Shown here piece by piece: positions 7,149-20,131 of a DNA stretch of 64,000 nt. The stretch's first letter is position 1. The number at the start of each line of letters is the position of its first letter. The notes beneath the pieces were generated by a model. It saw nothing but the letters and a program-made list of their open reading frames with translations, was not told the DNA's origin and did no database searches. The translations under genes and the position numbers were made by a program. This stretch comes from Methanosphaerula palustris E1-9c (GTDB lineage: Archaea > Halobacteriota > Methanomicrobia > Methanomicrobiales > Methanospirillaceae): contig NC_011832.1 of NCBI RefSeq assembly GCF_000021965.1, positions 2,521,242 through 2,585,241 on the forward strand. The letters run 5' to 3'.

Positions 7149-7970
7149 CTATCCCTCGGATATCTCCTGTAATTTTTCAGCCAGCTCGTTTGATTCGTTC
7201 TTCAGATACAGCAGCGATTGCCGTATAATCGTCCGGACCGGAAGGGATCCGTCACTCTCCACCACGCCGATGAACCGGGTGGCATCGTCGGAGATCCGAA
7301 TCCCCGGCTCATCTCCGATCCCTGTACTCAGGCATGCCTTTTCACAGAGTTTGCAGAGTGAACAGGACTCGAGCTTTCCCTCTTCGACGGTGAGCACACC
7401 GCCCTTCAGAACCAGTACATCTCGTGGGCACTGGTCAACACAGGTACCACATGCATCGCAGTGGGTCTCGACCGTGATTACCGGATAGTTCTTGTATCCG
7501 CAGTTGATTGTGGGCTGCCACTTGGCATGGACCTTTCCAAGGTTCATCTCGGCACGTGCCTCAATGACCACCTTCTGCCCCTTCTCAAGCTTCACGATCG
7601 GGATCTTCTCATCAACAGGGACTGCCTCAGGGTCTGATGGTATCAGATCCCGTGAGTAGACCATCCCCGGTCCCTCGACACTCAACGTATACATCGTCGA
7701 ACAGCGGTCGCATCCTGCTCCTTCACAGGTACACCGATCTGCAGAGACATAAAGGTCCGAGTTGGTCTTCAGCGGGACGAGCCCGATCCGGTGTGCCAGC
7801 ATCTCATCAAACAGAGCACTGGTATTGTCGTAGATTTTAATATCTTCTATCGCAAGTTTCGGAACTTCACTGCACATCGCTCTCCGGATGGCATTGATGA
7901 ACGAAGGACTCACGCCAGTCAGCGTATAACGCGCTACGGTGTTGTCAAGTCTGCTGAATACGAGATCCAT
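7149..7970 (-). CDS. rpoD: DNA-directed RNA polymerase subunit D with ferredoxin-like domain
   Basis: Homolog of eukaryotic Rpb3/alpha; with RpoL it nucleates polymerase assembly. The N-terminal half has TLTGVSPSFINAIRRAMCSE and MLAHRIGLVPL, and a CTCEGAGCDRC stretch likely to bind zinc. A ferredoxin-like insertion follows near residues 170-215, with CDACGTCVDQCP and CSLCKLCEKAC. Each has a complete CxxCxxCxxxC cysteine set, so two 4Fe-4S clusters are plausible. This domain is known in many methanogen RpoD proteins and absent in others. Length is 273 residues. Situated between S11 and L18e. Confidence 0.97.
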   Translation of the reverse strand: MDLVFSRLDNTVARYTLTGVSPSFINAIRRAMCSEVPKLAIEDIKIYDNTSALFDEMLAHRIGLVPLKTNSDLYVSADRCTCEGAGCDRCSTMYTLSVEGPGMVYSRDLIPSDPEAVPVDEKIPIVKLEKGQKVVIEARAEMNLGKVHAKWQPTINCGYKNYPVITVETHCDACGTCVDQCPRDVLVLKGGVLTVEEGKLESCSLCKLCEKACLSTGIGDEPGIRISDDATRFIGVVESDGSLPVRTIIRQSLLYLKNESNELAEKLQEISEG

Positions 7971-8366
7971 TCAGACTCTCCTTCCCCGCCGGCCACCCTT
8001 TGCACGAATGCTGTCGTGGGGAACCGGAGTTACATCCTCGATGCGACCGATGCGCATACCTGCCCGGGCGAGTGCACGGATTGCTGCCTGTGCGCCTGCC
8101 CCAGGAGATCGCTGCTTGCCGCGACCAGGTGCTCGGACCTTGATATGAAGCCCGACGAACCCCTTGTCCATCGCTGCCTGCGCAACATCCCCGGCCATCT
8201 TCATTGCTGCGTACGGGGAGGACTCGTTCCGGTCCTGCTTGACGACCATACCGCCGCTGCTCTTGGTCACAGTCTCTGCACCAGTCATATCGGTGACGGT
8301 GATGATTGTATTATTGAATGAGGCGAAGACATGTGCGACTCCCCACTTTTCTCTGTCATTTGCCAT
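7971..8366 (-). CDS. rps11: 30S ribosomal protein S11
   Basis: A 131-residue uS11 located in the platform of the small subunit. Signatures are [20 protein letters not shown] near the start, the [20 protein letters not shown] segment, and the C-terminal [20 protein letters not shown]. It abuts RpoD without a gap. Confidence 0.97.
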
Positions 8367-8372
8367 GCTGAC

Positions 8373-8918
8373 TCACCGCCTCTTCTTGTTGATCCGCTCG
8401 ATCTCCGGGTGCCCCTCACTAGTCAGTGGGGAGGTCCCATAGTAAGAGATCAATGTCTCCTGATCCCGTGGAACACGGTAAGACGGAATGTCCACACGTC
8501 GGCCTGCGATTGCGATATGACCATGAGTTACCATCTGACGAGCCTGCTTTGGTGAGCGTGCGAGACCCTGCCGGTAGACCATCGTCTGCAGGCGGCGCTC
8601 AAGCGGCTGCTGGATCTTCAATGACAACACATCACCAATGTCTGCATCCGGTCCAAGCAACCCAATCCTGTTCAGGTGACCGAGCAGATGTTCCTTTTTC
8701 GTGGCGATCTGCTGCTCGTCGGAGCTCTGTGACATGAACGCAAGCAACTCCCGTGCCGCTTTGCGGTACCTGCGGAGCACACTCTGTGCTCTCCAGACCT
8801 CACGCTTGTTCCGAAGGCCGTACTCGATAACAATACGGGTCTCATCCTCGATCCGCTGCTTCTCAAACGGACGTTTTGGGGCTTCATACCCCTTCGTGTT
8901 CTTGCCTGGATACCCCAT
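8373..8918 (-). CDS. rps4: 30S ribosomal protein S4
   Basis: A 181-residue archaeal uS4, one of the first proteins to bind 16S rRNA. It has the basic [20 protein letters not shown] start and an S4 RNA-binding domain ([20 protein letters not shown] through [18 protein letters not shown], about residues 105-155). It lies between S13 and S11 as in most archaea. Confidence 0.97.
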
Positions 8919-10769: not shown

Positions 10770-11585
10770 TCAGGACTGAGGCGTTGGCATCCCGCTGCCC
10801 GGGGTGCTGTTCTGCAGGTACTTCTGGGGGATCCGGACCTCTATCGAGTACGACTGGATGTACTTGGTGTTGATGATGAAGTAGTAGTCATGGTTCCCTT
10901 CAAAGAATTTCTCGACAAACGGTCCGCCATAACTGTTCCCCGGTGGAGTGATCACCCGGACGAACCGGTTCGGGTCCTCGGCATCGACCACTTGCATCGA
11001 AAACTTTGGAACCACCACGTCAGGAGAGACTGTGGTAGTAAGGGTATACCAGATCTCGAAGTACGGGTACGGGATGTGTATTACATCGGTGGTTCCGCTC
11101 CAGCGGCCATTTATGGTCGCGAAGACCCTAGTCGTCTTGTCTGCCCCGCCATCCGGCTTCGGTACATTCATCGTTGGATAAGTATCGATCACACTGACAT
11201 TATATCGGGCGGGGTCGACGAAGGGAACCGTTTTCGGTGTGAACGATGTGGAGAGTGTCTGAGTGGTGGTGAGCCCCACAAATGGGAGGCCGGAGGGGAG
11301 AGGAGGCGTCGAATTTTCCCCAGACCCATTTCCAGAAATATTGGTTGTCGTGCCATTTCCCGATACAACTGAATTAGTATTGTTGGCCTGCGTCTGGTTC
11401 GTTGCCCCTGACTGATTGGAGGAGGTCGCCGGCGTCTGCGTTCCATTCAGGGTGGTGACAGTCGGCGTCACCGTCGGAAGGCCTGTGTTGGCAGGTTTGC
11501 CAGTAATAGCCGGTTTCACTACCAGTGCCAGGATGATCACGATTGAGAGCGCGAGGATAACATACCGGATATCCTGCTTTTCCAT
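10770..11585 (-). CDS. Hypothetical membrane-anchored extracytoplasmic protein
   Basis: A 271-residue protein of unknown function. Residues 6-26 form one hydrophobic segment (VILALSIVIILALVV), followed by a Pro/Thr and then Asn/Thr/Gly-rich linker (about 30-95) with many NxS/T sequons, and a folded-looking C-terminal domain (about 105-260) rich in Tyr, Thr and Val. This layout fits an N-terminally anchored surface protein with a glycosylated stalk. The minus-strand gene is divergent from the archaellin array (218 bp to the first archaellin start), so it may share their regulation. I do not recognise the C-terminal domain. Confidence 0.75.
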   Translation of the reverse strand: MEKQDIRYVILALSIVIILALVVKPAITGKPANTGLPTVTPTVTTLNGTQTPATSSNQSGATNQTQANNTNSVVSGNGTTTNISGNGSGENSTPPLPSGLPFVGLTTTQTLSTSFTPKTVPFVDPARYNVSVIDTYPTMNVPKPDGGADKTTRVFATINGRWSGTTDVIHIPYPYFEIWYTLTTTVSPDVVVPKFSMQVVDAEDPNRFVRVITPPGNSYGGPFVEKFFEGNHDYYFIINTKYIQSYSIEVRIPQKYLQNSTPGSGMPTPQS

Positions 11586-11737: not shown

Positions 11738-11802
11738 CTCGACTGCGTTCAAAGATATAGAATACCGTAAAAATCTGGTATTCAGTTAAGAAGGTGAACA
11801 GG

Positions 11803-12396
11803 ATGAATACTATTAGAAGAAATGAAGACGCATTTACCGGCCTCGAAGCGGCAATTGTACTTATTGCATTTGTCGTCGTTGCGGCGGTGTTCTCATACGT
11901 GGTGCTGGGCGCAGGGTTCTTCACCACACAGAAGAGTCAGGAGACTGTACATACTGCTGTAGGTCAGGCATCATCAGCCATTGAGATTGTCGGTAACGTC
12001 TACGGTCAGGCAGACAATGCAGGGGACGATATAAGTTCAGTCGTCTTCAGCGTCGGCCTCGCAGCAGGCGCGACCCCAGTGGACATCAACAAGACCGTCC
12101 TGACCTTCTCAACAGGAGATACCGTAGAGACCCTGACATTCGCAGGATCAGCTGATCCCGCAGGAGCAGCAACTCCTGCAGCGGGTCAATGGGCAATTAC
12201 TCATCAGGAGAACAGCCTTGGAACAGAAAACAAGGTGCTCGACAGTGGAGAACAATTCACCATCACGGTTAAGCCAACGACAGCACTGAAGGCATACGCT
12301 GGATTTAACATCGACGTCAAGCCCGCAGTCGGAGCAGCACTTGCAATCCACAGAACTGTTCCAGCATACACCGATAAGGTGAATCTCCTCTACTAA
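11803..12396 (+). CDS. flaB: Archaellin, class A copy 1
   Basis: Major filament subunit of the archaellum. The class III signal peptide MNTIRRNEDA ends before FTGLEAAIVLIAF, and the cleavage by prearchaellin peptidase would leave the hydrophobic filament-core helix (about 11-45). The C-terminal beta domain has a conserved NKT glycosylation sequon in VDINKTVLTF. The ATG at 11803 follows AAGGTGA; an upstream in-frame GTG at 11794 lies inside that site and is unlikely. The protein is 197 residues. It is about 98% identical in DNA to copy 4 (16217-16810) through the coding region, but the flanks differ. A T-run after the stop may end transcription. Confidence 0.95.
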   Translation: MNTIRRNEDAFTGLEAAIVLIAFVVVAAVFSYVVLGAGFFTTQKSQETVHTAVGQASSAIEIVGNVYGQADNAGDDISSVVFSVGLAAGATPVDINKTVLTFSTGDTVETLTFAGSADPAGAATPAAGQWAITHQENSLGTENKVLDSGEQFTITVKPTTALKAYAGFNIDVKPAVGAALAIHRTVPAYTDKVNLLY

Positions 12397-12399
12397 TAC

Positions 12400-12406
12400 T
12401 TTTTTT
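12400..12406 (+). terminator. T-run after archaellin A1
   Basis: Seven Ts start 4 nt after the stop codon. Archaeal RNA polymerase can terminate on such runs without a hairpin. Comparable runs follow copies A2 (13397-13403), A4 (16814-16821) and A5 (18966-18973), so each archaellin is probably a separate transcription unit. Confidence 0.5.
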
Positions 12407-12803
12407 ATCCTTTCAGTGAAGGTTCTCCTAGACCCAGTTTAGGCAATTCATACCAAGGCAGACTCCGGACCGGAATCAGCACACGGTTTGATCCTCCTGA
12501 ATATTGGAAAGGTACCACCTTCCGGCGCCAGAAAATCACATTTGAGAGTGCGAAGATACTGGATTCATATATTTTGCAGTTCCTTTCATGTATTCAGTCA
12601 GGTTCGTGAATTATTTATAAAACCATAATTCTGATTACACACTAATTCGTATGGACCATTGAACTGGGAATTTCACTGATAATAAAATTGGAATAGTTCC
12701 ATAATTACGCATATTTCATATTGCAAATATTTATAAGTTATAACTACATTCAATGATATAGAATACCGGGGAAACCCTGTGTTCAGTCAAGAAGGTGAAT
12801 AGA

Positions 12804-13394
12804 ATGAAATCCATTAGAAGAAATGAAGACGCATTCACCGGTCTCGAAGCGGCAATTGTGCTTATTGCATTTGTCGTCGTTGCGGCGGTGTTCTCATACG
12901 TGGTGCTGGGCGCAGGGTTCTTCACCACACAGAAAAGTCAGGAGACTGTACATACTGCCGTAGGACAGGCATCATCAGCCATTGAGATTGTCGGAAATGT
13001 CTACGGTAAAGGCACTGCTGGGACCTCAGTTGACACGATTGTCTTCAGCATTGGCCTCGCAGCTGGAGCAACCCCAGTCGATATCAACAAGACCGTTCTG
13101 ACCTTCTCAACAGGAGATACTGTGGAAACACTGGCATTCGCAGGATCGACTACCACGGATGGATCAGGTACTGTGACAGCAGGGAAATGGGCCGTTTCCA
13201 GTCAAGATAACTCCCTTGGAACAGAAAACAAGGTGCTCGACAGTGGAGAGCAGTTCACCATCACGGCAATGCCATCAACAGCACTGAATGCATACGCTGG
13301 ATTTAACATCGACGTCAAGCCCGCAGTCGGAGCAGCACTTGCGATCCACAGAACTGTCCCGGCATATATCGATTCAGTGAACCTCCTCTACTAA
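12804..13394 (+). CDS. flaB: Archaellin, class A copy 2
   Basis: A 196-residue archaellin with signal peptide MKSIRRNEDA before FTGLEAAIVLIAF. The first 55 mature residues are nearly identical to the other class A copies, whereas the central variable part (GKGTAGTSVDTIVFSIGLA, and DNSLG later) resembles copies 3, 5 and 6 more than copies 1 and 4. The NKT sequon is kept. The ATG at 12804 follows AAGGTGA. A spacer of about 400 bp separates it from copy 1 and contains a TATA-like TTTATAAG near 12730. It is followed 192 bp later by a class B archaellin. Confidence 0.95.
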   Translation: MKSIRRNEDAFTGLEAAIVLIAFVVVAAVFSYVVLGAGFFTTQKSQETVHTAVGQASSAIEIVGNVYGKGTAGTSVDTIVFSIGLAAGATPVDINKTVLTFSTGDTVETLAFAGSTTTDGSGTVTAGKWAVSSQDNSLGTENKVLDSGEQFTITAMPSTALNAYAGFNIDVKPAVGAALAIHRTVPAYIDSVNLLY

Positions 13395-13396
13395 TC

Positions 13397-13403
13397 TTTT
13401 TTT
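13397..13403 (+). terminator. T-run after archaellin A2
   Basis: Seven Ts immediately after the stop codon, the same position as behind the other class A archaellins. Likely intrinsic archaeal termination signal. Confidence 0.45.
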
Positions 13404-13586
13404 ATTTCCAGAGATGTCTGATTCAATCGATTTTCCATCAGATACCATTGAGTGAATGGATCACCAGACAGATTCCCCTGCTCGCTCAGTTATTAAAGAG
13501 AAAACTCGAAAAGGATACACAGTAACCTATTTAGAGAACTCAGAAACTCACACTCCAATGAAGGATAAAAAGGAGATGAAACAAGG

Positions 13587-14147
13587 ATGGAAGATGCATT
13601 CACCGGACTTGAGGCTGCAATCGTTCTGATAGCCTTCGTTACGGTCAGTTCGGTCTTCTCATTTATGGTTCTGAGCGCAGGGTTTATGACCACTCAGAAA
13701 GCACAGGAGGTCGTGCATGCTGGAGTGGATCAGGCAACGAGTACCTTGCAGATACAGGGGGAAATATATGGAAGCACAGATAGTCCAGGTGGTCCGGTGA
13801 CCACGGTGACGATCATGTTGAAGACCGGGGTTCCCTTCGGGTCCGTCGATCTCAATAAAACAACATTTCATATATCAACCGATTCAACAAACGAAATCCT
13901 CCATAAGGGAACAGACCTAACCGATCCTGGACCTGGCCAGTGGACTATCCATGAACGAACGGGAGATAGCACCGGACAGACTGCTCGTCTCGGAATGAAT
14001 GATCAGATCACCGTCGAGTTGAGGCCATCATCCCCACTCCAACCAGGCAGAAGGTTTACGCTAGAAGTGAACCCGTCTGGGACCGTAGGATTTACAATTA
14101 CTCGATCAATACCAACCTCAACAGACCACATCGTTACCTTATATTGA
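13587..14147 (+). CDS. Archaellin, class B copy 1 (divergent)
   Basis: A 186-residue archaellin paralog. The filament-core segment (FTGLEAAIVLIAF, then VTVSSVFSFMV) is clearly homologous to class A, but the outer domain differs throughout except for VDLNKTTF, which keeps the NKT sequon. The in-frame start is an ATG giving only MEDA before the predicted cleavage, with no basic residue in the signal; an in-frame stop at 13566 excludes a longer form with a standard start. An AAGGAG site lies at 13570-13575, 11 nt from the ATG. Lower similarity between the leader and class A leaders suggests separate or weaker expression. It may be a minor filament component (inference). Confidence 0.88.
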   Translation: MEDAFTGLEAAIVLIAFVTVSSVFSFMVLSAGFMTTQKAQEVVHAGVDQATSTLQIQGEIYGSTDSPGGPVTTVTIMLKTGVPFGSVDLNKTTFHISTDSTNEILHKGTDLTDPGPGQWTIHERTGDSTGQTARLGMNDQITVELRPSSPLQPGRRFTLEVNPSGTVGFTITRSIPTSTDHIVTLY

Positions 14148-14266
14148 AAGAGGCTTCGTTTAGCAGGGGGATGAATCTCTGAAAAATCCGGGCTCTCTTC
14201 AGTCCAGCCGGTCTTGGATATGACAAAGATCAGTCCAAGAGGTCTTCCCAAAACTATTATCTCCAA

Positions 14267-15085
14267 TTATCCCCAGGGGTCTCCGTATGACCTTTATCGA
14301 AATTGGTGATGAACTCTGGAATCTTATTAGCCCCTTATTTCCCCCACAAAACCTCCGATGGGTCGTCCACGTTCTGATGAGCGTGGTTTGATCAATTGGC
14401 ATTCTTTACGTACTTTCCACTGGTTGCTCTTGGACTGATGTTCCTCGACAATATGGCACTAAATCTACAACACACCAGTTTCACTTGTTACTCAGTACTC
14501 AGGGAAGACATGACCAGATATTTGCCCTTATCCAAAACCAAGGTTATTATCTCTCCCAATTCGATCTCTCCTGTTGTTCGATTGATACTACCACGATCCC
14601 AGAAAAAAGAGGATTGCTAGGCTTTTACAGACTGGATCGAATTCAAGGCAGCAAAATGAGTGTTCTCGTAGAATGGCATGGTAGACCACTCGCCTACATC
14701 ATTGTTCCAGCGAACGTACATGATGCAATGACGTATCACCGACGTTAACGGTGTTCAGAATTCAAAGGCCGATTGGAAGGCCGATCACACGATCACAGGA
14801 GATTCTCGCAGATGCAGCGTACGATTCCATAGCCATCAGAACAATCAATCGTAGACGCGGAATTAAGACGATGATTCCAGTCAAACGGAGAAATCGCAGG
14901 CGACCCAAAAGAGGACGATCATATCGATTCGATCCCATGATCTACCGTTCTCAAGGAGCAGTTGAACGGTTCTTTAGTTAGGTCAAAGCATTCAGAACGA
15001 TCTCACCCAGATATGAACGGCTCGAAGAATCATTTCGAGGACTGGTCATCGTCGCCTGCATACTGATATTATGAAGACATTTGAG
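14267..15085 (+). mobile_element. IS5-type insertion sequence remnant (transposase pseudogene)
   Basis: A degenerate DDE transposase reads from the ATG at 14287 to the TGA at 15074, with frame changes and stops. Fragments in order are MTFIEIGDELWNLISPLFPP; a Trp-rich TDVPRQYGT-like region near 14430-14470; CCSIDTTTIPEKRG, RIQGSKMSVLVEWHGRPLAYI and NVHDAM; then ILADAAYDS, GIKTMIPVKRRNRRRPKRG and GAVERFFS. The D, D and E of the catalytic triad can be placed in IDTTT, ADAAYDS and AVERFF. The TAG after FFS replaces an expected Trp codon. No clear terminal inverted repeats were found. It lies between class B copy 1 and class A copy 3. Confidence 0.85.
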
Positions 15086-15109
15086 ATGATCTCCAGGATT
15101 ATCAACTGA

Positions 15110-15235
15110 AATGATCGTCAGTATAGGAATGTCCATCCTTAGTTTGAGCCGGGACATCTTTTTTAAGGGGTTCTTCCCACAACCAGTATCAATGAGATGG
15201 ACAGTTTTACCACGAACGATAATCATAGTGAAAAT
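15110..15235 (+). repeat. Inter-archaellin spacer repeat, copy 1
   Basis: This stretch downstream of the IS remnant matches 18110-18230 in the same orientation, with shared blocks such as gagccgg / aagccgg, ttcccacaacc, and atgag-aga-gg/aagaacat ahead of an AT-rich leader. The direct repeat shows that the spacer was duplicated together with archaellin genes, although the IS pieces beside the two copies point in opposite directions. It is not coding in any convincing frame. Confidence 0.65.
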
Positions 15236-15367
15236 TTTCAAATATATTTTGAAATAACCCCCATATTACTTGAATTTAAAATAGATTAACTTAAATTGTA
15301 TTGTCTCATCAAATAGGGGTAGATTAATGGATATGTGTCATATTTCCATTATTTGAAGGCGAAGAGA

Positions 15368-15958
15368 ATGAGAGATCAAATCAAAAATGAAGATGCATTT
15401 ACCGGTCTCGAAGCGGCAATTGTGCTCATTGCATTTGTCGTCGTCGCAGCAGTGTTCTCATACGTGGTGCTGGGCGCAGGGTTCTTCACCACGCAGAAGA
15501 GCCAAGAGACTGTACATACAGCCGTAGGACAGGCATCATCAGCCGTTGAGATTGTCGGAAATGTCTATGGAAAAGGTACTGCTGGAACCTCGATAGGCAC
15601 AGTCGTCTTCAGCATCGGCCTCGCAGCTGGGGCAACTTCGGTCGATATCAACAAGACCGTATTGACCTTTTCGACCGGCGAGACCATCGAAACCCTGACA
15701 TTCGCAGGATCGGCTACCCCGGATGGATCAGGAACTGTAACGGCAGGAAAATGGGCTATTACCAGGCAGGACAACTCTCTCGGAGCAGAAAATAAGGTGC
15801 TCGACAGTGGAGAGCAGTTCACCATCACGGCAATGCCATCGACAGCACTGAAGGCATACGCTGGATTTAATATCGATGTCAAACCAGCAGTCGGAGCAGC
15901 ACTCGCAATCCACAGGACCGTCCCGGCGTACATCGATGCAGTGAACCTCCTCTACTAA
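15368..15958 (+). CDS. flaB: Archaellin, class A copy 3
   Basis: A 196-residue archaellin with signal peptide MRDQIKNEDA. The core helix and QETVHTAVGQASSA segment are the same as in the other class A genes; the variable domain has TAGTSIGTVVFS and the NKT sequon. The ATG at 15368 follows GAAGGCGA, a leader shared with copy 5 (TTGAAGGCGAAGAGAATG), unlike the AAGGTGA leaders of copies 1, 2, 4 and 6. An in-frame upstream TTG/ATG extension to 15335 lacks a ribosome binding site. It is the first gene after the IS5 remnant. Confidence 0.95.
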   Translation: MRDQIKNEDAFTGLEAAIVLIAFVVVAAVFSYVVLGAGFFTTQKSQETVHTAVGQASSAVEIVGNVYGKGTAGTSIGTVVFSIGLAAGATSVDINKTVLTFSTGETIETLTFAGSATPDGSGTVTAGKWAITRQDNSLGAENKVLDSGEQFTITAMPSTALKAYAGFNIDVKPAVGAALAIHRTVPAYIDAVNLLY

Positions 15959-16216
15959 TACTTTTTTACTTACTCGATCTTGAAGAAGACTTAACCAACA
16001 GGAAGAAAGAGGTTTAGATGGAGTGTCCGCTGCCCATCTGTGCATTCCAAGGACCATATACACCCATAATGACCTATCAACTGGCCATTTTCTTTAGATT
16101 CTATAAATATCCACATAAATTAATTATTCACAATAGAATAATATAAATATTATAATAACCTCAATAGTAATTAGAATATCAGAGTGATCTGGTGTTCAGT
16201 CAAGAAGGTGAACACG

Positions 16217-16810
16217 ATGAAATCTATTAAAAGAAACGAAGACGCATTTACCGGCCTCGAAGCGGCAATTGTACTTATTGCATTTGTCGTCGTTGCGGCG
16301 GTGTTCTCATACGTGGTGCTGGGCGCAGGGTTCTTCACCACACAGAAGAGTCAGGAGACTGTACATACTGCTGTAGGTCAGGCATCATCAGCCATTGAGA
16401 TTGTTGGTAACGTCTACGGTCAGGCAGACACTGCAGGGGGCGATATAAGTTCAGTCGTCTTCAGCGTTGGCCTCGCAGCAGGCGCGACCCCAGTGGACAT
16501 CAACAAGACCGTCCTGACCTTCTCAACAGGAGATACCGTAGAGACCCTAACATTCGCAGGATCAGCTGATCCCGCAGGAGCAGCAACTCCAACAGCGGGT
16601 CAATGGGCAATTACCCATCAGGAGAACAGCCTTGGAACAGAAAACAAGGTGCTCGACAGTGGAGAACAATTCACCATCACAGTTAAGCCGACGACAGCAC
16701 TGAAGGCATACGCTGGATTTAACATCGACGTCAAGCCCGCAGTCGGAGCAGCACTTGCAATCCACAGAACTGTTCCAGCATACACCGATAAGGTGAATCT
16801 CCTCTACTAA
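16217..16810 (+). CDS. flaB: Archaellin, class A copy 4 (near-identical to copy 1)
   Basis: A 197-residue archaellin. Outside the signal peptide (MKSIKRNEDA versus MNTIRRNEDA) it differs from copy 1 at only about three amino acids (for example QADTAGGD versus QADNAGDD, TPTAG versus TPAAG). DNA identity falls away immediately after the stop codon and upstream of the ribosome binding site, which points to gene conversion rather than recent segmental duplication. The ATG at 16217 follows AAGGTGA. The NKT sequon is kept. Confidence 0.95.
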   Translation: MKSIKRNEDAFTGLEAAIVLIAFVVVAAVFSYVVLGAGFFTTQKSQETVHTAVGQASSAIEIVGNVYGQADTAGGDISSVVFSVGLAAGATPVDINKTVLTFSTGDTVETLTFAGSADPAGAATPTAGQWAITHQENSLGTENKVLDSGEQFTITVKPTTALKAYAGFNIDVKPAVGAALAIHRTVPAYTDKVNLLY

Positions 16811-16813
16811 TAC

Positions 16814-16821
16814 TTTTTTTT
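16814..16821 (+). terminator. T-run after archaellin A4
   Basis: Eight Ts four bases after the stop codon, equivalent to the runs behind copies 1, 2 and 5. Confidence 0.45.
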
Positions 16822-17042
16822 ATTTCCAGACCCTTGTTGTAGCAGTTAATCAAAGAGAACAAATACGCAATCATGAAATGATTCTGGTTCTACCGATTAT
16901 CTTTCGAATAACAAAATAGATCATCCGATCCCCTACTCAATCCACCACTAAAGAGATACCTCGAAATGGATAAGCATCAATCTTATGAGATAACCATTGG
17001 AACCCACCTTCGAGAGAAGGTCCATAGGGAGATGAAAGAGAG

Positions 17043-17603
17043 ATGGAAGATGCATTCACTGGACTTGAGGCTGCAATCGTTCTGATAGCCTTTGTCACAG
17101 TAGGTTCGGTCTTCTCATTTATGGTTCTGAACGCAGGGTTCGTAACCACCCAGAAGGCACAGGAAGTAGTACATACTGGAGGAAGCGAGGCTGCGATTAC
17201 CCTCCAAATCCATGGAGATATCTATGGCAGCGCCGATAGTTCAGGGGGACCGGTGACCATGATAACGATGATGCTGAAGGCTGGGGTTCCCTCGAGTTCC
17301 ATCGATCTCAACAAAACCACATTCCATATCTCAACCGATTCGACAAACGAGATCCTCCAAAAGGGAACGGATCTGTCGGATCCCTCCCCAGGACAGTGGA
17401 CAATTCACGAACGATTCAGTGAGAACAACGGACAGATCTCTCGTCTCGGACCCAATGACCTGGTTACCATAGAGATCAGACCTTCATCCCCACTCCCCCC
17501 AGGTAAAAGATTCACACTGGAAGTGAACCCGACCGGAGCAACAGGTTTTGTCATAACACGATCAATACCTACCTCAACAGACCATATGATCGTCTTATAT
17601 TGA
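17043..17603 (+). CDS. Archaellin, class B copy 2 (divergent)
   Basis: A 186-residue partner of class B copy 1 (about three quarters of residues shared by eye). It has the same four-residue signal MEDA before FTGLEAAIVLIAF, again with no basic residues, the VTVGSVFSFMV core, IDLNKTTFHIS with the NKT sequon, and the ending ITRSIPTSTDHM-VLY. Like copy 1 it follows a class A gene (232 bp after copy 4) and lies before IS-derived DNA, so A-B-IS-A is a repeated block. GGGAGATGAAAGAG supplies a plausible ribosome binding region. Confidence 0.88.
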   Translation: MEDAFTGLEAAIVLIAFVTVGSVFSFMVLNAGFVTTQKAQEVVHTGGSEAAITLQIHGDIYGSADSSGGPVTMITMMLKAGVPSSSIDLNKTTFHISTDSTNEILQKGTDLSDPSPGQWTIHERFSENNGQISRLGPNDLVTIEIRPSSPLPPGKRFTLEVNPTGATGFVITRSIPTSTDHMIVLY

Positions 17604-17960
17604 TGAGTGTGGGGCCTCAGCAAAAAGCAGAATCTCAGAAATATTCCTGCCATCCCCTTCCGGATTCGAACCTGAATTGATGTTCAGACATCTGATCCCT
17701 TTTTTTGGCTCTGATGAAATGCTTCAACTATGATGACAATCACTACAGATTGAACTACCTTCGTGAGGTTATAGAGGATCATTTTGACCTTGATCTCATT
17801 GACCTGTTACCAATTTTTTCGTGCCTTCAAGTCATCTCCGTAGCGTGCCAAAAGTGATGTAAAGTAAAAATACCCTGTATTCAACCTAGAATTGCGTGAA
17901 AGGTGAAACAGGGCCATGATACCATTATCATTTATCGAAGAACTCATCCCAAAAGTCTCC
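17604..17960. other. Non-coding spacer with a short uncertain ORF
   Basis: No convincing gene is present between class B copy 2 and the inverted IS fragment. One forward frame from 17718 reads 47 codons beginning MKCFNYDDNHYRLNYLREVI and ending near 17861. It looks protein-like at its start but is short and unmatched, so it may be the broken N-terminus of another transposase or a chance ORF. Confidence 0.4.
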
Positions 17961-18102
17961 ATAGTATCAGTATGCAGGCGACGATGACCAGTCCTCAAAA
18001 TGATTCTTCGAGCCGTTCATATCTGGGTGAGATCGTTCTGAATGCTTTGACCTAACTAAAGAACCGTTCAACTGCTCCTTGAGAACGGTAGATCATGGGA
18101 TC
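17961..18102 (-). mobile_element. Inverted fragment of the same IS5-type transposase
   Basis: About 140 bp are the near-exact reverse complement of 14930-15070, covering the transposase C-terminus from the DPMIYRSQGAVERFFS segment to the end. It keeps the same premature TAG after FFS that the forward copy has. So the two fragments share an already-damaged ancestor, or have exchanged sequence since the damage. Only the 3' end survives here. Confidence 0.88.
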
Positions 18103-18109
18103 TTCACCG

Positions 18110-18230
18110 ATATGACTGCCCCGATAGAGATATTCACCCTTGATTCAAGCCGGATTCAACACATAAGAAGTGTACTTCCCACAACCTGCTTTAATGAGAA
18201 GAACATTTTATCCCAAAATCAATAATCCTG
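18110..18230 (+). repeat. Inter-archaellin spacer repeat, copy 2
   Basis: Direct, diverged copy of 15110-15235 located in front of class A copy 5, just as the first copy precedes class A copy 3. The AT-rich leader and GAAGGCGA ribosome binding region that follow are also shared. Confidence 0.6.
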
Positions 18231-18370: not shown

Positions 18371-18961
18371 ATGAAATCTCTAATCAGGAATGAAGATGCA
18401 TTCACCGGTCTCGAAGCGGCAATTGTGCTCATCGCATTTGTCGTTGTTGCGGCGGTGTTCTCATACGTGGTGCTGGGCGCAGGGTTCTTCACCACACAGA
18501 AGAGCCAAGAGACTGTACATACTGCCGTAGGACAGGCTTCATCAGCCGTTGAGGTTGTAGGCAATGTCTACGGAGAAGGTACTGCTGGAACTTCGGTTGA
18601 TACAATCGTCTTCAGCATCGCCCTCGCCGCAGGGGCAACCTCGGTTGATATTAATAAAACTGTATTGACCTTTTCAACCGGTGATACCGTCGAAACACTG
18701 ACATTCGCGGGTTCTGGTTCAACAGATGGAGCAGGTACCGTAACAGCAGGGAAATGGGCAATTACCGGACAGGATAACTCCCTTGGAGCAAAGAATAAGG
18801 TGCTCGACAGTGGAGAACAGTTCACCATCACTGCAATGCCATCAGCAGCACTGAATGCATACGCTGGATTTAATATCGATGTCAAGCCTGCAGTCGGAGC
18901 AGCTCTAGCAATCCACAGGACCGTGCCGGCATACATCGATGCAGTGAACCTCCTCTATTAA
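18371..18961 (+). CDS. flaB: Archaellin, class A copy 5
   Basis: A 196-residue archaellin with signal MKSLIRNEDA before FTGLEAAIVLIAF. It resembles copy 3 in the leader and the central domain, and differs mainly in short stretches (EGTAGTSVDTIVFSIALA, GSGSTDGAGT, GAKNKV). The NKT sequon is present. The ATG at 18371 follows GAAGGCGA; an in-frame extension to 18353 is less likely. A run of eight Ts follows the stop. Confidence 0.95.
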   Translation: MKSLIRNEDAFTGLEAAIVLIAFVVVAAVFSYVVLGAGFFTTQKSQETVHTAVGQASSAVEVVGNVYGEGTAGTSVDTIVFSIALAAGATSVDINKTVLTFSTGDTVETLTFAGSGSTDGAGTVTAGKWAITGQDNSLGAKNKVLDSGEQFTITAMPSAALNAYAGFNIDVKPAVGAALAIHRTVPAYIDAVNLLY

Positions 18962-19125: not shown

Positions 19126-19261
19126 CTGACAGGTCAACTCATACACAAACATAAGTCGCGAGTTCCACCAAACATGAAGTCCCCCTTGGACGTTGCATGG
19201 GTCCACTATGAGAATACGCACATCCACCTATTAAAAAATGATTAGGAACATACCAGCCACA

Positions 19262-19350
19262 CAGCAGCAATTATATTCTACATCCGTCGATATCGCTAGC
19301 GGTGCTCTCATACGTTGTGCTTGGCGCAGGGCCCTCTACCACACTGAAGA
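19262..19350 (+). pseudogene. Archaellin fragment (signal and core helix region)
   Basis: About 85 bp can be aligned with the archaellin core-helix coding region: gcagcaatt near the start, then gcggtgctctcatacgttgt, gcttggcgcaggg and accacactgaagag. The equivalents in intact genes are gcggcaatt, gcggtgttctcatacgtggt, gctgggcgcaggg and accacacagaagag. Indels and stops break the frame, and no start or C-terminal domain remains. It is a ninth, dead archaellin locus between copies 5 and 6. Confidence 0.7.
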
Positions 19351-19528
19351 GAAAAACGGATTCCACCAACAGAAAAAAATGCTGTTTCAACGTAACACAA
19401 TATGCAATTTGTGAAATGAAATTAGATATCGACGATGCAGTATAAATAATTTTAAATAGTAAAATATCAATTTATTCTATATATTAATCATCCATTTTGA
19501 TCTCCCATAAAGACAGAAGGTGACCAGA

Positions 19529-20131
19529 ATGAATCTCTCCATCGGATCTGCAACAAATAATGAAGCCGCGTTCACCGGTCTCGAAGCGGCAATAGTACTG
19601 ATTGCGTTTGTCGTCGTCGCATCAACCTTCACCTACGTAGTGCTGGGTGCAGGGTTCTTCACCACACAGAAAAGTCAGGAGACTGTACATACTGCCGTGG
19701 GACAGGCATCATCAGCTGTTGAGATTGTGGGTAATGTCTATGGAAAAGGCATTGCTGGCACATCGATCGACACGATCGTATTCAGTATCGGTCTCGCTGC
19801 AGGGGCAACCCCGGTGGATCTCAATAAAACCGTATTGACCTTTTCTACGGGTGATACTATTGAGACACTGGCATTCGCTGGATCCGGTTCAACAGATGGA
19901 TCAGGTACAGTCACAGCAGGGAAATGGGCAATTTCAAGCCAGGACAACTCCCTTGGGGCAGAAAACAAGGTGCTCGACAGCGGGGAACAGTTCACCATCA
20001 CAGCAATGCCATCTACAGCGCTGAATGCCTATGCTGGGTTTAATATCGATGTCAAGCCCGCAGCAGGAGCGGCCCTTGCGATCCACAGGACCGTACCGGC
20101 ATACATCGATGCAGTGAACCTTCTTTATTAA
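19529..20131 (+). CDS. flaB: Archaellin, class A copy 6
   Basis: A 200-residue archaellin with a longer and less basic signal peptide (MNLSIGSATNNEAA) before FTGLEAAIVLIAF. The core has VVVASTFTYVVLGAGF, so it is the most diverged class A copy in this segment, while the outer domain is close to copies 2, 3 and 5. The NKT sequon is kept. The ATG at 19529 follows AAGGTGA; a GTG at 19520 lies within that site. It is the last gene of the array and converges on the acetolactate synthase operon. Confidence 0.95.
   Translation: MNLSIGSATNNEAAFTGLEAAIVLIAFVVVASTFTYVVLGAGFFTTQKSQETVHTAVGQASSAVEIVGNVYGKGIAGTSIDTIVFSIGLAAGATPVDLNKTVLTFSTGDTIETLAFAGSGSTDGSGTVTAGKWAISSQDNSLGAENKVLDSGEQFTITAMPSTALNAYAGFNIDVKPAAGAALAIHRTVPAYIDAVNLLY

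Follow-up and report, generated by a model that had tools for sequence, protein, structure and literature searches.

Evidence for homology-limited gene conversion between two archaellin genes of Methanosphaerula palustris E1-9c

Introduction

How did two archaellin genes that stand apart in one array of Methanosphaerula palustris E1-9c come to be almost the same from end to end, when the DNA around them is not? The initial annotation of this locus attributed the likeness to gene conversion rather than recent duplication. We examined the pair in a stretch of 64,000 nucleotides (the window), corresponding to bases 2521242-2585241 of the single-contig 2,922,917-bp genome; coordinates below refer to the window.

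Organization of the archaellin array

The array contains six class A (A1 to A6) and two class B (B1 and B2) archaellin genes, all on the + strand, in the order A1 A2 B1 A3 A4 B2 A5 A6. It is bounded by a divergent gene (10770-11585, - strand) and, on the other side, by a gene pair beyond 20199 that, judging by its translations, is acetolactate-synthase-like. The Arch_flagellin domain (PF01917) was present, and the translations showed a class III leader, with a predicted cleavage site, followed by the FTGLEAAIVLIAF core helix. The putative conversion partners are A1 (11803-12396; PF01917 E-value 7.2e-37) and A4 (16217-16810; 127 bits, above the PF01917 cut-off), each encoding 197 aa. The remaining class A genes are A2 (12804-13394), A3 (15368-15958), A5 (18371-18961), and A6 (19529-20131), the most diverged; all six are intact ORFs. 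B1 and B2 occupy 13587-14147 and 17043-17603, respectively, and B2 starts 232 bp past A4. The initial annotation placed A2 and B1 between the two copies; both lie there, but so does A3.

Both class B archaellins carry a four-residue leader, M-E-D-A, ahead of the FTGLEAA core, and no alternative ATG, GTG, or TTG start was found between the upstream in-frame stop and the annotated start of either gene. Among 141 archaellin genes surveyed (see below), the nearest ATG was never less than five residues away. According to a review excerpt, FlaK requires at least five leader residues and PibD cuts leaders of three or four residues (PMC4307647).

Several other features were recorded in and around the array. 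A piece of archaellin core-helix sequence at 19234-19351, between A5 and A6, is probably a dead gene. Remnants of a repeated, insertion-element-like sequence lie downstream of B1 (14300-15089) and of B2 (17944-18115); elsewhere in the genome this sequence has an 89% match over the entire query and several fragments, and a Pfam search of one of its ORFs gave no match. The remnant at 17944-18115 matches 14919-15089 at 95% identity in inverted orientation, which places inverted copies on both sides of the A3-A4-B2 block. The divergent gene at 10770-11585, which gave no Pfam match, encodes a protein with a hydrophobic stretch at its N terminus and a part rich in Pro, Thr, and Ser; a gene of the same kind (approximately 7736-8426, - strand) also sits upstream of the archaellins at a Methanogenium locus (L100, discussed below). 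A cluster more than 500 kb away from the array (G000:C1:1974000-1986000) contains a T2SSE ATPase beside a KaiC-type ATPase and an Arch_flagellin-domain protein, and is probably the archaellum motor operon, judging by inferred gene names.

A bounded tract of near identity between A1 and A4

The near identity reported in the initial annotation was confirmed: its coordinates are exact ORF stretches, and the alignment of A1 with A4, 594 bases free of indels, contains 580 matches. Since the two genes are not identical, they do not represent a collapsed assembly repeat. Four of the 14 mismatches fell in the first 21 bases, which encode the leader predicted to be cleaved, and ten in the other 573. 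The mature proteins differ at three positions (codons 76, 79, and 130 of the class A alignment).

To delimit the similarity, we fitted a two-rate change-point model to the ungapped A1/A4 comparison. The resulting tract is 634 bp long with 17 mismatches (97.3% identity in local alignment), covering 11773-12406 on the A1 side and 16187-16820 on the A4 side, both on the + strand. It extends from 30 bp upstream of the ATG to 10 bp beyond the stop codon, and each edge shifts by just 1 bp within 2 log units of support. The edges are thus sharp, but fall close to the coding ends rather than directly on them, with the ribosome-binding site and the T-run inside the tract. The initial annotation had named even divergence over gene and flanks as the outcome that would refute conversion; this was tested for and not found, and divergence instead rises abruptly at both tract edges. 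Near identity limited to such a tract, between paralogues of the same genome, is characteristic of gene conversion.

Divergence within the tract was uneven, with seven mismatches in the first 51 bp versus ten in the remaining 583 (Fisher test with slightly different bins, 8/64 versus 10/571, P=1.3e-4). This unevenness may indicate that a tract edge falls within the leader or that there were two events. The main tract differs by 1.7% between A1 and A4.

Synonymous divergence and codon agreement

A synonymous comparison of all class A pairs set A1/A4 clearly apart. Over the full coding region, dS for A1/A4 was 0.056 (bootstrap 95% interval, 0.021-0.100), whereas the remaining 14 pairs ranged from 0.420 to 1.206. 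The value for the class B pair, B1/B2, was 0.79 (0.58-1.11), a silent-site divergence approximately fourteen times that of A1/A4. In a three-way comparison of A1, A2, and A4, alignment columns beyond position 36 grouped A1 with A4 at 81 sites, A2 with A4 at four, and A1 with A2 at four, and all three differed at two. In the first 36 columns, which include the leader, the corresponding counts were one, two, and two, so that the A4 leader sites siding with A2 are few, a point against conversion.

The dN/dS ratio was low in all class A pairs (0.07-0.25). If A1 and A4 stemmed from an old duplication and selection on protein and codon usage had preserved their likeness, such constraint would be expected; however, of 144 degenerate codons whose amino acid is invariant, A1 and A4 agreed at 139, compared with 77-113 in the other pairs. 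Equally constrained class A pairs therefore differ at 31-67 of these codons and A1/A4 at only five. Codon preference was rejected as the cause of the likeness, and we consider that long-term selection can almost be dismissed as an explanation.

Flanking sequences point to other relatives

Flank homology was assessed for all 15 class A pairs on each side with dinucleotide-preserving shuffles, leaving out the shared edge zone. The 5' flank of A4 (15977-16180, + strand) was homologous to that of A5 (z 6.8) and unlike that of A1 (z -0.9). The spacer between A4 and B2 (16823-17042, + strand) was homologous, by shuffle test and alignment, to the A2-B1 spacer at 13407-13586 (z 13.9) and showed no homology to the 3' flank of A1 in the shuffle test (z 0.5). 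Among the 3' flanks A2-A4 was the only clear pair, the next reaching 2.0; among the 5' flanks, A1-A2 (14.9), A3-A5 (15.2), and A4-A5 stood out, and the rest were at or below 2.7. Class A genes have the ribosome-binding site, coding region, and T-run in common, and their flanks are mostly unrelated.

The flank relationships are themselves reassorted. A2 resembles A1 upstream and A4 downstream, A4 resembles A5 upstream and A2 downstream, and A3 and A5 are alike in their 5' flanks but not in their 3' flanks. Moreover, A2-B1 (12779-14147) aligned as a block to A4-B2 (16192-17603) over 1,419 columns, which makes A2, like A4 the gene preceding a class B gene, the positional counterpart of A4. Sequences otherwise located around other class A genes therefore border the A4 site on both sides, correctly ordered and oriented, and both flanks and neighbour genes reflect another, older relationship than the A1/A4 bodies do, as gene conversion would leave them.

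An older tandem duplication is also visible at A1/A2, including approximately 270 bp of upstream sequence. The duplicated segment reaches into the divergent gene at 10770-11585, whose 5' end it includes, and has left a relic upstream of A2 (matching pieces, 11536-11585 and 12535-12590).

Recombination tests and direction of transfer

A GENECONV-type run test on all sites of the coding region, the check suggested in the initial annotation, did not flag A1-A4 (pair P 0.72, global P 1.0). The test has little power for this pair because the whole coding sequence sits inside the tract, and the case for conversion consequently rests on the flanks and the neighbouring genes. In the core-helix region the same type of test on all sites gave runs for A1-A5 (global P 0.0008), A4-A5 (0.0015), and both A1-A2 and A4-A2 (0.019). 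No run was found with silent sites only, and PHI-type tests, run with either six or five class A copies, gave no significant result (P 0.31, 0.38, and 0.47); additional mosaicism among the class A copies was dropped on these grounds. With regard to silent-cassette antigenic variation, in which unexpressed donors would supply one expression site with mosaic variants, the observations are that all six class A genes are intact and that no further mosaicism was detected. The proposal that conversion shuffles variable domains among copies is likewise unsupported, since the tract encodes the mature protein in full, as one piece, and the runs inside the coding sequence are weak.

The ten differences in the main tract comprise about equal numbers of A1-unique and A4-unique states, and coding dS relative to A2 is nearly the same for both genes (A1/A2, 0.42; A2/A4, 0.45). 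Given these similar values, we did not assign donor and recipient.

Archaellin pairs in other genomes

We searched 61 genomes, including that of M. palustris itself, and scanned contigs at 64 loci. No other genome of the genus was listed among the 61, no locus among the 64 was titled Methanosphaerula, and the search gave no sister species or second strain with the pre-conversion state; the nearest archaellin copies in other genomes were 64-66% identical in protein. In one genome of the same family, thirteen matches to the A1 protein were dispersed across the chromosome, unlike the array described here.

For a survey of pairwise divergence, 148 HMM-matched ORFs were collected and seven without the sought leader motif were excluded, as were pairs aligned over fewer than 240 bases. 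The 152 pairs left were reduced to 145 once duplicates were removed, and these were drawn from 43 loci or genomes other than the present one, most of them in Methanomicrobiales; one set of 18 stretches represents nine of the 61 genomes searched. With dS calculated for the mature region only, as against the full coding region in the window, none of the 145 pairs was as low as 0.06 and only one was at or below 0.2. This single comparable pair (dS 0.128) belongs to a Methanogenium MAG (L100, 8952-9525 and 10030-10603). Its near identity stops at the T-run past the stop codon, and no flank homology was detectable further out (5' z 0.4; 3' z 1.8). A third archaellin-like stretch, apparently incomplete, follows this pair at approximately 10802-11302. 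The next pair, in Methanogenium cariaci, had a dS of 0.308 and homologous 3' flanks (z 11.9), and ordinary duplication would also fit it. Cases of this kind thus occur, but only a few were present in the 145-pair sample.

Origin of the A1/A4 likeness

Taken together, these data strongly support interlocus gene conversion as by far the best explanation of the A1/A4 likeness, and we put the probability that homology-limited conversion between the two loci homogenised A1 and A4 at roughly 0.86. Recent duplication of A1, in tandem or as a block with later rearrangement, would account for the high identity, the common strand, and the location in one array, and older duplications are visible here in A1/A2 with its upstream sequence and in A2-B1 with A4-B2. 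The flanks of A1, however, did not travel with A4; those around A4 belong to other class A genes, and the neighbouring B pair is far older than the A1/A4 bodies. We therefore regard A4 as most improbable as a recent copy of A1. The same flank pattern would arise if the body of A4 had come by homologous recombination from an A1-like gene of another strain rather than from A1 on the same chromosome, in which case divergence between strains, not later mutation, could account for the 1.7% mismatch in the main tract. Strain-to-strain identity of Halorubrum flaB2, as presented in the part of PMC7349177 relied on here, also ends at the signal-peptide region. Such an origin requires an external donor; none was found, the closest copy in another genome being 66% identical in protein, and we judge it unlikely.

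Gene conversion within the array would have proceeded as follows. A class A gene was probably already present at the A4 site, and its body was replaced by that of A1, or the reverse; with other class A flanks around an A1-like body, the most economical account is that a gene body already in place was replaced. Homologous recombination between the coding regions would have copied one body over the other and left the flanks unexchanged. Class A genes may be seen as islands of homology between unrelated flanks, to which recombination would naturally be limited. The tract edges lie where homology between the A1 and A4 loci ends, shortly before the ribosome-binding site on one side and in the T-run past the stop codon on the other, and a sharp, coding-sized boundary could thus form with no special signal or dedicated machinery.

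Relation to known systems

Gene conversion between mtrA-1 and mtrA-2 is described in Methanomicrobiales and Methanococcales, in a study whose excerpt names M. palustris among the species examined (PMC4632066). There, as with A1 and A4, methanogen paralogues from the order of M. palustris are homogenised in one coding region while adjoining parts differ. The mtrA case, in that excerpt, is recurrent homogenisation across many species, whereas A1/A4 would be one recent event in one genome and covers the whole coding region of a filament gene. Concerted evolution has also been described for the tandem flagellin genes (fla) of Alteromonadales and for seven archaeal genes, all from methanogens, in a table that, in the part of the source used here, is without an archaellin (PMC6053082). 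Those fla genes share with A1/A4 the homogenisation of filament-subunit paralogues in tandem location, but belong to a protein family unrelated to archaellins.

Archaellin arrays of the same gene family as A1-A6 and B1-B2 have been documented. An excerpt of PMC4858521 gives up to nine archaellin paralogues for M. palustris, in agreement with the nine matches found here, and describes them in terms of duplication; PMC4307647, as excerpted, mentions an array of five similar flagellins with hypervariable regions. The term gene conversion is absent from the main text of both papers, and a search of titles and abstract openings in the open literature, with subscription journals mostly outside its coverage, gave no report of archaellin gene conversion. 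Three papers mention both archaellins and gene conversion, one of them in its reference list alone. The process itself has been described before, in methanogens and for bacterial flagellins.

Implications

A1 and A4 provide a clean natural example of conversion limited to roughly the coding region of an archaellin. They also call for caution with archaellin gene trees, which may misstate gene history because coding sequence and flanks point to different relatives. A near-same mature filament protein would now be made from two unrelated upstream regions, and conversion might also keep subunits compatible. Elsewhere, an archaellum is known to be a heteropolymer in which two subunits alternate (PMC8821640). 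More speculatively, and with low confidence, the archaellin arrays of Methanomicrobiales might be cassette sets in which recombination repeatedly shifts whole subunit bodies between upstream regions. The reassorted flanks and the Methanogenium MAG pair would then be traces of this process, which would change which filament variant is expressed in which condition and would perhaps allow escape from archaellum-binding viruses.
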